Shown piece after piece: positions 1,378 to 34,362 of a DNA stretch of 34,849 nucleotides. The DNA is taken from positions 1 to 34,849 of the forward strand of contig JANXEK010000016.1 of assembly GCA_025058595.1 (NCBI GenBank), given 5' to 3'. The notes below the pieces were generated by a model, which saw only the letters and a list, made by a program, of their open reading frames with translations, did no database searches and was not told the origin of the DNA. Origin of the DNA: Candidatus Bathyarchaeota archaeon (GTDB lineage Archaea > Thermoproteota > CALKCG01 > B24 > DRYS01). The position numbers and the translations under genes are program-made. The stretch's first letter is position 1; each line of letters starts with the position of its first letter.

Positions 1378-1666
1378 AGATCGTCACGCCGCTTAATATA
1401 CATCAACTTATATCGACTAAAGGCTATTTAAAGATAGATGCAAACCATAACGCTACAAGAACGAGTAACGGAAGTATATCTGAAGAAGATTATAAACTTT
1501 GCACATAGTCTAGCCTAGCGAATCTACTAATATACCAGTCTATGTAACCTATCCGATATCCTAGCCGATACTATGCAGGTTAAACTCTGTAGGAGCGAGC
1601 TAATTTTCCACGTTTTAGATGGATTTATTGGTAGCCCGGGGGAGATTCGAACTCCCGTCGGCGGGG

Positions 1667-1687
1667 TTCTCCTCCCCTTGTAGGGAT
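1667..1687 (-). other. tRNA-Gln intron 2 (21 nt, position 37/38)
   Basis: Exon CUCU pairs with intron GGAG (one G-U) as the central helix. The bulges are GG|A and AA|C. The intron closes on itself with UCCCU/GGGGA around an ACAA loop, and the outer helix is the mature anticodon stem, which forms fully only after intron 1 is gone. This is the canonical intron site, next to the anticodon. A register shifted by one base would give loop CUCUGGA but leaves a G-G mismatch. Confidence 0.8.
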
Positions 1688-1695
1688 CCAGAGCC

Positions 1696-1727
1696 TTATG
1701 GGAGGGGGCTGGCCCTCACCCGCCTCT
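1696..1727 (-). other. tRNA-Gln intron 1 (32 nt, position 29/30)
   Basis: On the transcript, exon AUGG pairs with intron CCAU as the 4-bp central helix. A 3-nt bulge CG|A lies on the 5' side and AA|G on the 3' side. An intron helix GAGG/CCUC is inside and a short exon helix (C-G, G-C, A-U) outside. Cutting after the second bulge base on each side removes exactly 32 nt at the known non-canonical position 29/30. This is a BHB motif of the archaeal tRNA splicing endonuclease. Confidence 0.85.
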
Positions 1728-1786
1728 CGCCATGCTTGGCCGCTGCACCACCGGGCTGCCCTTCGATGTATTATCTATTCTAAGAG

Positions 1787-5103: not shown

Positions 5104-6342
5104 ATGGTTAGGCTTAGATTCTACGGTGGGATCGAAGGATTTATAGGTGGAAACCAGGTGGTGCTAGAAGATGATAGCGCTACTCTACTCCTAGATTTCG
5201 GTTTAAACTATCGCTTATGGTCTAGCTACTTCGAATTCATATTTTCAGAGCCTGAGAGTTTAGATGAGGTTATCCGCGTAGGTTTAGCTCCAGATCTACC
5301 TATCATAGACTCTATAGATGCATGCATTATATCGCATGCGCATACCGATCATTGGCGTCTGATAACGATACTACCCGAAGGTTCACGTATCCTCCTAGGT
5401 GAATGCGCCTATAGAATCATAGACGGCTGGTCTAAACGTGTGAGGAGGAGAACCCTGCTATACCGTACATCCCATCTAAGATTCGATACGTTCAGAACCG
5501 GATCCACTATAAGAATAGGAGAGATCGAAGTTAAACCTATAAGCGTAGATCATAGCATACCTGGAGCCTATGGCTTCCAGATATATACGCCGTCAGGGTT
5601 GATAGCGTATACAGGGGATTTCAGGCTTCACGGTAGGTTTAAGCCTAAGATAGATCTATGTAATGGGTTGGAGGATCGAGTATCCCTACTGATATGCGAG
5701 GGGACGAATATAGGTAGGCTTGTAGAGCCTACGAGCGAGAGCGACGTAGCTACTAGAGCCTCTAGCATAGTGGAGAGGTGTAGAGGCTTAGTTATAGTGG
5801 ATATAGCTCCAGCAGATATCGATAGGTTGAATACGATGATCGAGGTAGCATACAGGGCTGGTAGGGAGGTTGTATGTAGCGATAGAATCATAGATACGGT
5901 TATAGACCTATCACCGGATAGATCCTTGAAAGTTCCGAGGATAGGTGAGGATATTAAACCGTTCGAAGAGGTTGAGGATAGCTGTACACGTAACCCTGAA
6001 AGGTATATGCTAGTTACATGTCTCTATAGCGAGAGAGAGGTTAGAAGGATTAAACCTCCTCCTGGAAGCGTATACCTTCTAAGCTGTTCAGAGCCTTTCG
6101 AGGAGGAGAGGGAGATAGCGTTCAACCGTCTATTGAACTGGCTGCATACATTCGGTGTATCTATATACCATGTACATTCATCTGGGCATATCTATCCTCT
6201 CGATATACGTAGGATCGTCGAGAGGATTAAACCTAAAGCTGTAGCGGCGATACATACAGAGTATCCTGATGCCTTCAGATACCTCCTCTCCGATCTAGTT
6301 AAGGTCTATACGTTTAGGAGGGGCGACGAGCATAGGATCTAG
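5104..6342 (+). CDS. Metallo-beta-lactamase / beta-CASP nuclease (RNase J-like)
   Basis: The 412-residue protein has the metal-binding SHAHTDH motif, a second His in VDHSIPGAYG, and Asp in AYTGDFRLHG. It also has the beta-CASP terminal motifs SGH (about 360-362) and HTE (384-386). This combination marks nucleic-acid-processing beta-CASP enzymes, in archaea mostly exonucleases related to RNase J. The domain order is MBL, inserted beta-CASP, MBL completion. Placement directly behind a translation GTPase suits an RNA role. The substrate is not determined. Its stop codon overlaps the convergent HAD gene. Confidence 0.8.
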   Translation: MVRLRFYGGIEGFIGGNQVVLEDDSATLLLDFGLNYRLWSSYFEFIFSEPESLDEVIRVGLAPDLPIIDSIDACIISHAHTDHWRLITILPEGSRILLGECAYRIIDGWSKRVRRRTLLYRTSHLRFDTFRTGSTIRIGEIEVKPISVDHSIPGAYGFQIYTPSGLIAYTGDFRLHGRFKPKIDLCNGLEDRVSLLICEGTNIGRLVEPTSESDVATRASSIVERCRGLVIVDIAPADIDRLNTMIEVAYRAGREVVCSDRIIDTVIDLSPDRSLKVPRIGEDIKPFEEVEDSCTRNPERYMLVTCLYSEREVRRIKPPPGSVYLLSCSEPFEEEREIAFNRLLNWLHTFGVSIYHVHSSGHIYPLDIRRIVERIKPKAVAAIHTEYPDAFRYLLSDLVKVYTFRRGDEHRI

Positions 6343-6983
6343 GGCTCGATAAGATATGGTAGTATATCTTTCAAACTATCAGATTCTACGATTACATCAG
6401 CCATCCTTCTTATAGCTTCGGTCTTAGGGTTGAAAGCTATCTTAAACCCCGCCGCTTCGAATAAGGATATATCGCTTACATCATCTCCTACAGCGGCTGT
6501 AGAGCTTCTAGGAATACCTTCAAGCTTCATGAAGGACTTTAGAATCCTACCCTTATCGTTTATACCAACCCTAACTTCGATATCACCTGTGAGGATACCG
6601 TCTACGACTATAAGCTTATTCGCTAAAGCATAATCTACGCTTAGCCTACGTGCAGCTAGATCTGCAAGCTCCTGTAGACCTGCACTTATGATAACAATCT
6701 TAGCACCAGCCCCCCTTAAAACCTCTACGACGTAGTCGGCTCCATCTACGAATTCAACCTCCGTTAGAATCTCCATGACGTTCTTTAAAGGTATACCACG
6801 CCATAGATTCGCATCGAGTTTAGCCCATTCCTCATAGCTTATCTTTCCTTGGAAGAATAGATCGGCGTTAACCCTAGCTTTATCCATAGTACCGAGCCTC
6901 CTATGTAAATACTCCCATACACTCACAGTCCTAGTTAACGTTCCATCTAGATCAAAGGCTACCAGTTTAAACTTAGCTTTCAC
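6339..6983 (-). CDS. HAD-superfamily phosphatase, phosphoserine phosphatase-like
   Basis: With the GTG start at 6983 the protein is 214 residues. Motif I is FDLDGTLT (D11 nucleophile, D13 acid/base), motif II is IISAG, and motif IV is VGDDVSDISLF, in the order of SerB-type HAD enzymes. The frame is open upstream to 7094, but those residues look non-coding and overlap the promoter and start of the divergent DHH gene, so the shorter start is preferred. Substrate could be phosphoserine or another small phosphate ester. Confidence 0.8.
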   Translation of the reverse strand: MKAKFKLVAFDLDGTLTRTVSVWEYLHRRLGTMDKARVNADLFFQGKISYEEWAKLDANLWRGIPLKNVMEILTEVEFVDGADYVVEVLRGAGAKIVIISAGLQELADLAARRLSVDYALANKLIVVDGILTGDIEVRVGINDKGRILKSFMKLEGIPRSSTAAVGDDVSDISLFEAAGFKIAFNPKTEAIRRMADVIVESDSLKDILPYLIEP

Positions 6984-7007
6984 AAACCTACAGAAATAGG
7001 TCAAAGA

Positions 7008-7018
7008 GGTTTTAAGTT
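7008..7018 (+). promoter_or_regulatory. Putative TATA box of the DHH gene
   Basis: The A/T run TTTTAAGTTTA lies about 35-40 nt upstream of the ATG at 7050, in the gap between divergent HAD and DHH genes. It supports translation from 7050 and not from the internal TTG at 7138. The reverse complement may also serve the HAD gene. Confidence 0.4.
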
Positions 7019-7049
7019 TAACCGAGGAGTATAGATTACGGTGATTTAG

Positions 7050-8055
7050 ATGTTTAGGGAACCCATAGTAGCCGTTACACACGGAGAGTCTCATCTTAAG
7101 ACCCGAAGATTGTGACGGTATCTGCTCAGCCGCTCTATTGAGAAGGAATCTGAAGATAGATATAGATCGTATACGTATATCTACGCCTACAGGACTTTAC
7201 AGAGTTTTAAGGTCTGTATCATCTATGAATCCATCGACTATAATTGTATGCGATATCGCCGTAGATACGAGCCATATGAGCGAGCTTATAGATCTAATTC
7301 GAAGCTTAACATCTAGTAAATGCTCTATATACTATATCGATCATCACCCGCCGCCTCTAGGTTTTCCTCCAATCGATCTAGATGGGTTCAAATACCTGTA
7401 TAGATTAGGTGTATCGGCTTCCCAGCTTGTATATGAAGCGTTAGGTAAACCTGATGATAGAATTTCTAGGATACTTATGACGTACGGTGCGATAGGTGAT
7501 ATGTGCGATGAATCCCAGCTAGTTAAGGATACATTGAGCTTATGGGATAAACGCCTCATATACCTTGAAGCAGGGTTCATAGTCGAAGGTTTGATATCGG
7601 GAAGAGATCGGAAGTTTATCCGTGAACTTATAGATAAACTGGCGCAGGGGAATCCCCCGAGCAGTATACCCGAGTTAGTATCGAGCTGCCTTAAAACTTT
7701 GAGCGAGGAGTACAAGGTATACAAATACATCGAGGAGAACGTTACGGTTAGAGGTAGGATAGCTATCGTATCGAAGCTGCCCGTAAGCGGTTTCGGAGGT
7801 AAAGCCGCGAACTATGCTTTAACATGTACTAAAGCCGATGTAGCTATAGCGATAACCGTAAGCGGAGGTATAGCCTATATGAGTTTAAGGAGCAGTAATC
7901 CTAGGATAGATCTAAACGATCTAACGCGTAGGTTATCCACAGCTCTGGGCGGTCATGGTGGGGGACACCTGCAATCTGCTGCAGCGCGAATACCGGTTTC
8001 AAGGATAGAGGAGTTCCTGATGTTTATGGAGATAGCTTTATCTAGTATGAGCTGA
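7050..8055 (+). CDS. DHH-family phosphoesterase, split by a 22-nt intron
   Basis: Joining 7050-7086 to 7109-8055 gives 984 nt, 327 residues plus stop. The new N-terminus reads MFREPIVAVTHG-DCDGICSAALLRR, a textbook DHH start whose DxDG binds metal. Downstream come CDIAVDTSH, YIDHHPPP (the DHH motif) and a C-terminal DHHA1 domain with GGHGGGHLQSAA. Such proteins are nanoRNA, cyclic dinucleotide or ssDNA exonuclease-type hydrolases. Without splicing the motif-bearing frame has no ATG, GTG or TTG upstream of the motif; the internal TTG at 7138 would delete motif I. A +1 frameshift or a sequence error are the alternatives. It is divergent from the HAD phosphatase. Confidence 0.8.
7087..7108 (+). 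other. Candidate 22-nt BHB intron in the DHH gene
   Basis: The 5' bulge is AG|A (7085-7087) and the 3' bulge AG|A (7107-7109). The inner helix GTCT/AGAC (7088-7091 with 7099-7102) closes a 7-nt loop. The central helix CGG/CCG (7082-7084 with 7103-7105) has an A-A mismatch at its fourth position. The outer exon helix is GTTACA/TGTGAC (7074-7079 with 7111-7116, one G-T) after a C-T mismatch. The 3-4-3 register is exact, and the predicted cuts rebuild the Asp codon G|AT. The motif is relaxed compared with the cbf5 intron. Confidence 0.65.
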
Positions 8056-25949: not shown

Positions 25950-26114
25950 ATGGCTAAACATAGACCTCCTAAGGAGAGGAAGTTTGGTAAGGGTAGTCGT
26001 AGGTGTAGACGTTGCGGTAGCCATGAAGCTATAATTCAAGCATATAATCTCATGTATTGTAGGAGATGCTTCAGGGAGATAGCCCCCCTCCTAGGGTTTA
26101 AGAAGTTCGATTAG
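25950..26114 (+). CDS. rps14: 30S ribosomal protein uS14 (zinc-binding)
   Basis: This 54-residue protein has two CxxC pairs: CRRC (residues 19-22) and CRRC (37-40), forming the zinc site of archaeal uS14. The start [16 protein letters not shown] and the end LLGFKKFD are typical. It was found by reading the sequence and is short enough to be missed by ORF filters. The next gene begins 11 nt later. Confidence 0.95.
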
Positions 26115-33332: not shown

Positions 33333-33335
33333 GGG

Positions 33336-34362
33336 GTGTTAAGTCTTAGTCTTTACACCACCCTGGAGTCTGAAGAGAGAGTTTATCTATAGGGAAACCC
33401 CGCATACCGACGAAAAGTATGGTTGTAGACCTGATAGGAGGCCTATAGATAAGCTGCTAGAGTATGGGTTGATAATACTCGATAAGCCATCAGGTCCTAC
33501 AAGCCACGATGTAACAGCTCTTATCAAGAGGATAGTGGAAGCTAGGAAAGCTGGGCATGGAGGGACCCTAGAAGCTTAGATCCAGTAGGATCTAAGCTGG
33601 GGATATCCCGTTGTCACAGGGGTTCTACCTATAACGTTGAACAACGCCGTTAAGATAGTTAGGGTTCTGCTCAACGGTGGTAAAGAATATGTAGGCATTA
33701 TGAGGCTGCATGGAGATGTATCTATGGATGTGATAGAGTCATGCTTCAAACTTTTTCAAGGTGAGATCTATCAGAAGCCACCTGTCAGATCCTCCGTTAA
33801 GAGGAGGCTTAGAACTAGGCGTATATACTATTTGGATCTTCTAGAGGTTGATGGACGCGATGTATTGTTCCGTGTAGGCTGTGAAGCTGGGACATACATA
33901 AGGAAGCTGTGCTACGATATAGGTGAGGTCCTCGGCTGCGGGGCTCATATGAAGGAGCTTAGACGTACACGTGTATCTACGTTCACAGAGGATGAATGTG
34001 TACGCATAGACGATGTATTCGATGCTTATAGGAGCTGGAAGGAGTATGGGGATGGATCTATGCTTAGAAAGATCGTTAGACCTATGGAGGAGGCTCTCTC
34101 GATATTACCGCAGATAATCGTTAAGGATACTGCTGTGGAAGCTATATGTAGCGGAGCGGATCTAACGATACCTGGTATAGTCGCTTTCACAGGCGATATA
34201 CGCGAAGGCAACCTTGTAGCTATACTCACGGTTAAAGGTGAAGCTGTAGCTTTAGGTTTATCTCAGCTATCCGCCGAGATGTTTTTAGAAAGGGATAAGG
34301 GGATAGCTGTTAAGATCGAACGTGTACTTATGCAGCCCGGAACATATCCGAGAGCTTGGTAG
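33336..34362 (+). CDS. cbf5: H/ACA RNP pseudouridine synthase Cbf5 (dyskerin), interrupted by one or two introns
   Basis: Exons 33360-33571 and 33605-34362 encode a near-complete Cbf5: LKREF, YGCRPDRRPIDKLLEYG, LIILDKPSGPTSHDVTA, AGHGGTL|DPVVTGVLPI with the catalytic Asp rebuilt by splicing, PPVRSSVKRRLRTRRIYY, VGCEAGTYIRKLC, and a C-terminal PUA domain (IVKDTAVEAICSGADLTIPGI, KGIAVKIERVLM). With a second, tentative 5' intron the start is GTG TT|A CCC, giving MLPWSLKREF and 324 residues. It makes pseudouridine in rRNA with H/ACA guides and also in tRNA. Unspliced, in-frame TAG codons stop it before DP. Confidence 0.9.
33341..33359 (+). other. Tentative 19-nt intron at the cbf5 start
   Basis: In the cbf5 frame no start codon exists between stop 33340-33342 and Trp 33364. 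Removing 33341-33359 joins GTG TT to A CCC TGG, giving MLPW, a good match to the LP..KRE start of other archaeal Cbf5 proteins. AGGG (33331-33334) pairs with CCCT (33361-33364), followed by a 3-nt bulge CC|A and TT|A opposite. The central helix has only a G-C, an A-T and a G-T, and the inner helix is weak. A +1 frameshift is the competing idea. Confidence 0.4.
33572..33604 (+). other. 33-nt BHB intron in cbf5
   Basis: Complete bulge-helix-bulge. The outer helix is GGGA/TCCC (33562-33565 with 33606-33609), the 3' bulge AT|A (33603-33605), the central helix CCCT/GGGG (33566-33569 with 33599-33602), and the 5' bulge AG|A (33570-33572). The inner 11-bp helix AGCTTAGATCC/GGATCTAAGCT (33573-33583 with 33588-33598) closes an AGTA loop. 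Cutting after the second bulge base joins CTAG to ATCCCG, which reads L-D-P. cbf5 introns are known in Thermoproteota; this example is among the short ones. Confidence 0.95.

Follow-up and report, generated by a model that had tools for sequence, protein, structure and literature searches.

How a DHH phosphoesterase could be produced from a gene whose first motif is divided between two reading frames is the question raised by positions 7,050 to 8,055 of contig JANXEK010000016.1 of Candidatus Bathyarchaeota archaeon (assembly GCA_025058595.1, here G000), the whole analysed stretch of 34,849 nt being called the window. The frame of ATG 7050 reads MFREPIVAVTHGESHLKTRRL and then meets TGA at 7113, while the frame encoding DCDGICS is open from 7072, with no ATG, GTG or TTG until TTG 7138, which lies 3' of motif I. 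Between the upstream MFREPIVAVTHG frame and the downstream DCDGICS frame lie 22 nt (7087-7108), which with high probability are an archaeal bulge-helix-bulge (BHB) pre-mRNA intron. The split, its structure, the conservation of that structure, intact homologues and the genes of the processing enzymes, all seen directly in the sequences, support this reading. An intron had been proposed here from the letters of the window alone (the sequence-only reading), and the coordinates and letters of its split, as well as the lack of a start codon before motif I in the downstream frame, agreed with ours.

Deletion of the 22 nt in silico gave a product of 327 aa beginning MFREPIVAVTHGDCDGICSAALL, and the join reads THGDCDGICSAALL. 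The predicted spliced mRNA would have the junction GGAG↓ATTGTGAC, and its product the N-terminus MFREPIVAVTHGD and the junction-spanning peptides THGDCDGICSAALLR and EPIVAVTHGDCDGICSAALLR without extra residues. The Pfam DHH score was raised from 27.0 bits for the unspliced frame, below the cut-off of 28.1, to 30.5 for the spliced product, in which motif I (HGDxDG), the DHH motif and a DHHA1 domain with GGGH, the marks of a DHH/DHHA1 phosphoesterase, were all present. Intronless homologues carry exactly the predicted junction, THGDCDGVCS (THGDCDGVCSAA), which bears out the perfect DHH motif I expected after splicing by the sequence-only reading.

The DHH searches covered 398 genomes of the phylum, of which 286 gave a match, and, for one class, 229 genomes with matches in 182. 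About 200 well-scoring DHH homologues stood among the matches listed. Essentially all of them have motif I in frame, and the exceptions are the genus studied here, sequences cut by a contig end or an assembly break, and the genome G221 described below. Motif I was uninterrupted in five order-mates. Three flagged homologues (G371, G451 and G400) were rejected as intron carriers, because they represented assembly breaks or deletions. Asp13 was invariant across 16 aligned homologues, and so were H11, D15 and G16. Translation from TTG 7138 is mechanically possible and would give a protein lacking motif I, but these four residues would all be lost, and exon 1 is conserved as coding sequence and preceded by a ribosome-binding site in both genomes of the genus; such a start is scarcely credible.

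In the minimum-energy fold of 7071-7119 (49 nt), exon pairs with exon over 9 bp, followed by CGG/CCG and a hairpin closed by GUCU/AGAC. All helices of the sequence-only reading (GTTACA/TGTGAC, CGG/CCG and GTCT/AGAC) were recovered in it, but the first had been made too short, since nine pairs (7071-7079/7111-7119) could be formed, two of them G-U. The exact 3-4-3 register claimed there was right for the bulges and the cuts, and holds exactly only when the A-A mismatch at 7081/7106 is taken as the fourth central pair. With register and cut positions as in a BHB motif and a central helix of 3/4 pairs, the insert belongs to the relaxed type. This central mismatch weighs against an intron, as do a C-U mismatch at 7080/7110, which opens the outer helix and again makes the motif a relaxed one, and the fact that the intron was seen in two genomes only, both draft assemblies. 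Relaxed BHB motifs are substrates of (alpha-beta)2 endonucleases (PMC6379350). When an intron length of 22, a central helix of at least 3/4, an outer helix of at least 8/9 and an inner helix of 4/4 pairs were required, the DHH site alone matched out of 69,606 positions on the two strands of the window. Because the two bulges of G000 are identical, four adjacent cut placements give an identical product there, so that G000 by itself does not determine where the cuts fall.

The one other genome of the genus compared, Candidatus Bathyarchaeota archaeon JZ_bin_32 (G001, contig JAGTQC010000001.1), is a metagenome assembly whose DHH protein shares 80% identity with that of the window genome. Its DHH gene reads GGAG↓AGTCTCTCTGAGAGACCCGAAT↓ACTGTGACGG, with a 22-nt insert at the same base. 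Between the two inserts none of the six hairpin-loop positions was identical, while 15/16 of the remaining positions (stems and bulges) were, against 51/112 of the 4-fold degenerate sites in the exons; 15/16 identity under neutrality has a probability of about 1e-4 (binomial estimate). The 3' bulge of G001 is AUA, in which the cut is needed after the second (or third) base, and a cut after the second gives G↓AC, that is, Asp. The unspliced downstream frame of G001 reads PEYCDG, with Tyr (TAC) at the invariant Asp position. A sister genome with the same split had been named as a check by the sequence-only reading, and it was found here with the loop diverged, the stems kept and Asp obtained only by splicing.

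Since the unspliced frame of G001 encodes Tyr, a frameshift or a bypass would therefore lose the metal ligand there. A programmed +1 ribosomal frameshift, adding about seven residues to motif I, agrees with the +1 offset between the frames in both species, and CTC TGA in the upstream frame of G001 loosely resembles, in our comparison, the bacterial prfB site. However, G000 is without the TGA context, homologues have no residues at the place inside the motif where the seven would fall, the conserved bases of the insert are those of the BHB, and the shifted frame of G001 fails to provide the conserved residue; a frameshift is very unlikely. A ribosome hopping over the 22 nt (bypass, known from gene 60 of phage T4) would suit a hairpin and a short untranslated gap, but the take-off and landing codons do not match (GGA vs GAA), an in-frame landing puts GAA before TAC in G001, and an Asp codon built from both sides is impossible for bypass at codon boundaries, which makes this explanation extremely improbable. 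An error of sequencing or assembly might be suspected, or a pseudogene in decay, because the draft of the window genome has 66 contigs and 91.6% completeness. Error cannot explain two independent inserts, and the one-base genome error by which the sequence-only reading might have fallen is contradicted by the second genome, where the split recurs with another loop sequence. The non-synonymous (dN) and synonymous (dS) divergence of the DHH gene was 0.11 and 1.16, with dN/dS about 0.10 (323 codons, G000 vs G001), and there was no other lesion. By these substitutions the gene is functional and under purifying selection, and therefore not decaying, so that error or decay is a most unlikely source of the split.

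For the intron the following route could be proposed. Exon 1 (AVT codons) would pair with exon 2 (CDG codons) in the transcript to form the outer helix, CGG and the CCG of the intron 3' end would form a short central helix flanked by two 3-nt bulges (AGA and AGA), and the intron hairpin would cap the structure. Each bulge would be cut between its second and third base by a two-subunit (alpha-beta)2 tRNA-splicing endonuclease, and the exons would be ligated by RtcB, restoring the GAT codon for the metal-binding Asp that is invariant in DHH motif I (THGDCDG) in the 327-aa protein; we infer cleavage, ligation and translation of the spliced mRNA in this way. Two splicing-endonuclease subunit genes (PF01974) and one RtcB gene were identified in each of G000 and G001, and the endonuclease may assemble as (alpha-beta)2 and may carry the Crenarchaea-specific loop. 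The 22-nt mRNA intron of the sequence-only reading is supported by these enzyme genes together with the G001 split, the junction match and the unique register. Of a mobile intron family there was no sign: the three other copies of the hairpin pattern in G000 are embedded in normal coding or non-coding sequence, and none has a tRNA close by.

The cbf5 gene in the same window, which encodes an RNA pseudouridine synthase, contains an intron of the form GGGA-CCCU-AG↓A ... GGGG-AU↓A-UCCC, whose removal restores GTLDPVVTG. The cbf5 pre-mRNA intron is known from Crenarchaeota (Watanabe 2002; Yoshinari 2006; Yokobori 2009, PMC2738675), with lengths of 16-44 nt (PMC2738675). In this class cbf5 was split in 7/7 genomes, and the introns whose register was checked were 33, 34, 17, 16 and 16 nt long, those of order-mates being 16-17 nt; cbf5 looks split in six genomes of the order of G221 too. 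The DHH intron shares with it the bulge types, the cut positions, the phase and the kind of codon, whereas its central helix has 3/4 instead of 4/4 pairs, its host is a DHH phosphoesterase, and its distribution is narrow, with one genus seen. The sequence-only reading had placed the 22-nt intron among the smallest of its kind; it is small, but not a record in view of these lengths. An unguided search of the window and 38 kb of G001 for BHB motifs joining open reading frames recovered the DHH site and the cbf5 intron of the window, but it gave many chance matches and was unusable alone for new introns.

A second candidate was revealed in DHH motif I of G221, a distant member of Thermoproteota, at G221:C1 about 26,008-26,070 (L057:1009-1070), where an in-frame 18-nt insert with TGA reads CACGGCGAT↓AGGCCTTGAGCCCGCCAG↓TCTGACGG and its removal gives AHGDSDG (AHGDSDGVCS). 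Read as a BHB, it would have its cuts in AU↓A and AG↓U, on either side of a GGCG/CGCC helix of 4 perfect pairs; a central helix of 4/4 and an inner helix of 3/3 pairs at length 18 occurred at 25 of 26,606 nearby positions. The case appears good but weaker, coming from one genome that is 72% complete, and the order-mates of G221 are mostly without a DHH gene. This putative intron is of phase 0, stands two bases further on than the phase-1 site of G000 and is unrelated in sequence. That phase, length and sequence all differ suggests separate gains in G221 and in the genus.

Table 1. Positions in the window of the split DHH gene, its predicted RNA elements and the cbf5 comparator
Feature	Coordinates	Strand	Basis or remark
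Likely ribosome-binding site GGTGAT, 4 nt 5' of ATG 7050	7040..7045	+	Sequence; G001 has GGAGGT similarly placed
DHH exon 1: MFREPIVAVTHG + G, first base of Asp13 codon	7050..7086	+	Residues 1-12 as in G001; differences synonymous
Putative 22-nt BHB intron AGTCTCATCTTAAGACCCGAAG, phase 1, within GAT codon of invariant Asp13	7087..7108	+	Sequence, G001 comparison, register score
DHH exon 2: remaining DHH/DHHA1 phosphoesterase, stop 8053-8055	7109..8055	+	Sequence; Pfam DHH
Outer (exon-exon) helix, 5' arm GCCGUUACA	7071..7079	+	Fold
Outer helix, 3' arm UGUGACGGU	7111..7119	+	Fold
Central helix, 5' arm CGG	7082..7084	+	Fold, register scan
Central helix, 3' arm CCG	7103..7105	+	Fold, register scan
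5' bulge AGA, cut AG↓A	7085..7087	+	Same bulge in G001 and cbf5 intron
3' bulge AGA, cut AG↓A (G001: AU↓A)	7107..7109	+	Sequence, register scan
Intron hairpin GUCU-CAUCUUA-AGAC (G001: GUCUCU-CUG-AGAGAC)	7088..7102	+	Fold
cbf5 intron, 33 nt, known archaeal mRNA intron, comparator	33572..33604	+	Excision restores GTLDPVVTGVLP
cbf5 exon 3' of its intron	33605..34362	+	Sequence

A divergent HAD-hydrolase gene (6339-7094, minus strand) faces the DHH start; at window 7050-7094 (both strands) its longest frame overlaps exon 1 together with some of the intron, and the true HAD start is probably further downstream. For cbf5, no in-frame ATG, GTG or TTG was present 5' of the conserved N-terminus (TPPWSLKREFIYRE) in G000 and G001 (window 33333-33375), and a strong hairpin holding a GGGGGUG ribosome-binding site is conserved there in both genomes; an odd start codon, a leader hairpin or a second intron may be involved. 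The minus strand of window 1632-1760 looks by eye like tRNA-Gln(CUG), AGCCCGG...CTCTGGA...GTTCGAATC...CCGGGCTACCA, with about 50 nt that are probably two introns; this candidate was detected by neither ARAGORN nor Rfam. The fragmented nuoEFG of JZ_bin_32 (G001:C13:57000-60500, L059), described as Chloroflexota-like pseudogenes (PMC8407382), were rejected as spliced genes, since they look like the pseudogenes that their authors describe; a longer open frame (660 aa) exists for the nuoF part in G000:C13.

According to a 2020 study, cbf5 was the only other archaeal mRNA with a reported BHB intron, and one in the 5' untranslated region (UTR) was added there (PMC7714728). The added intron, in the HVO_1309 mRNA of Haloferax volcanii (PMC7714728), is likewise a substrate of the splicing endonuclease, but it lies in the 5' UTR and not in the coding frame, and in another archaeal lineage with another enzyme type. 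Archaeal tRNA and rRNA introns have the BHB motif and presumably the enzymes in common with the DHH intron, whose host is instead a protein-coding mRNA. The putative introns of 12 bp in genes of archaeal viruses (Peng et al., as cited in PMC2738675) are also very short and in coding genes, but those inserts are in frame and need no splicing, while the DHH insert breaks the frame and the catalytic Asp. No earlier report of a BHB intron in a DHH gene was found in the literature searched, which did not cover the survey of Tocchini-Valentini 2011 (PNAS), so an earlier report is not fully excluded. On the sequence comparisons, the insert is almost certainly an intron; the DHH gene would then be a new host of a known mechanism, and, after cbf5, the second type of archaeal protein gene in which such an intron could be found.

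It seems somewhat more probable than the opposite that archaeal mRNAs repeatedly acquire or retain very small BHB introns in codons for catalytic Asp, with at least two independent gains in DHH motif I and a parallel in the catalytic Asp codon of cbf5; if so, the persistence of these introns would be due to the need for exact removal, without which no working enzyme is made. A second host gene, together with a probably independent case in DHH motif I, suggests that mRNA splicing in archaea extends beyond a single frozen accident, and that gene callers may hide such introns as fragmented open reading frames. Intron gain could be tested here, on an event that appears young (one genus, with intronless order-mates) and polarised, beside the old cbf5 intron in the same genome.
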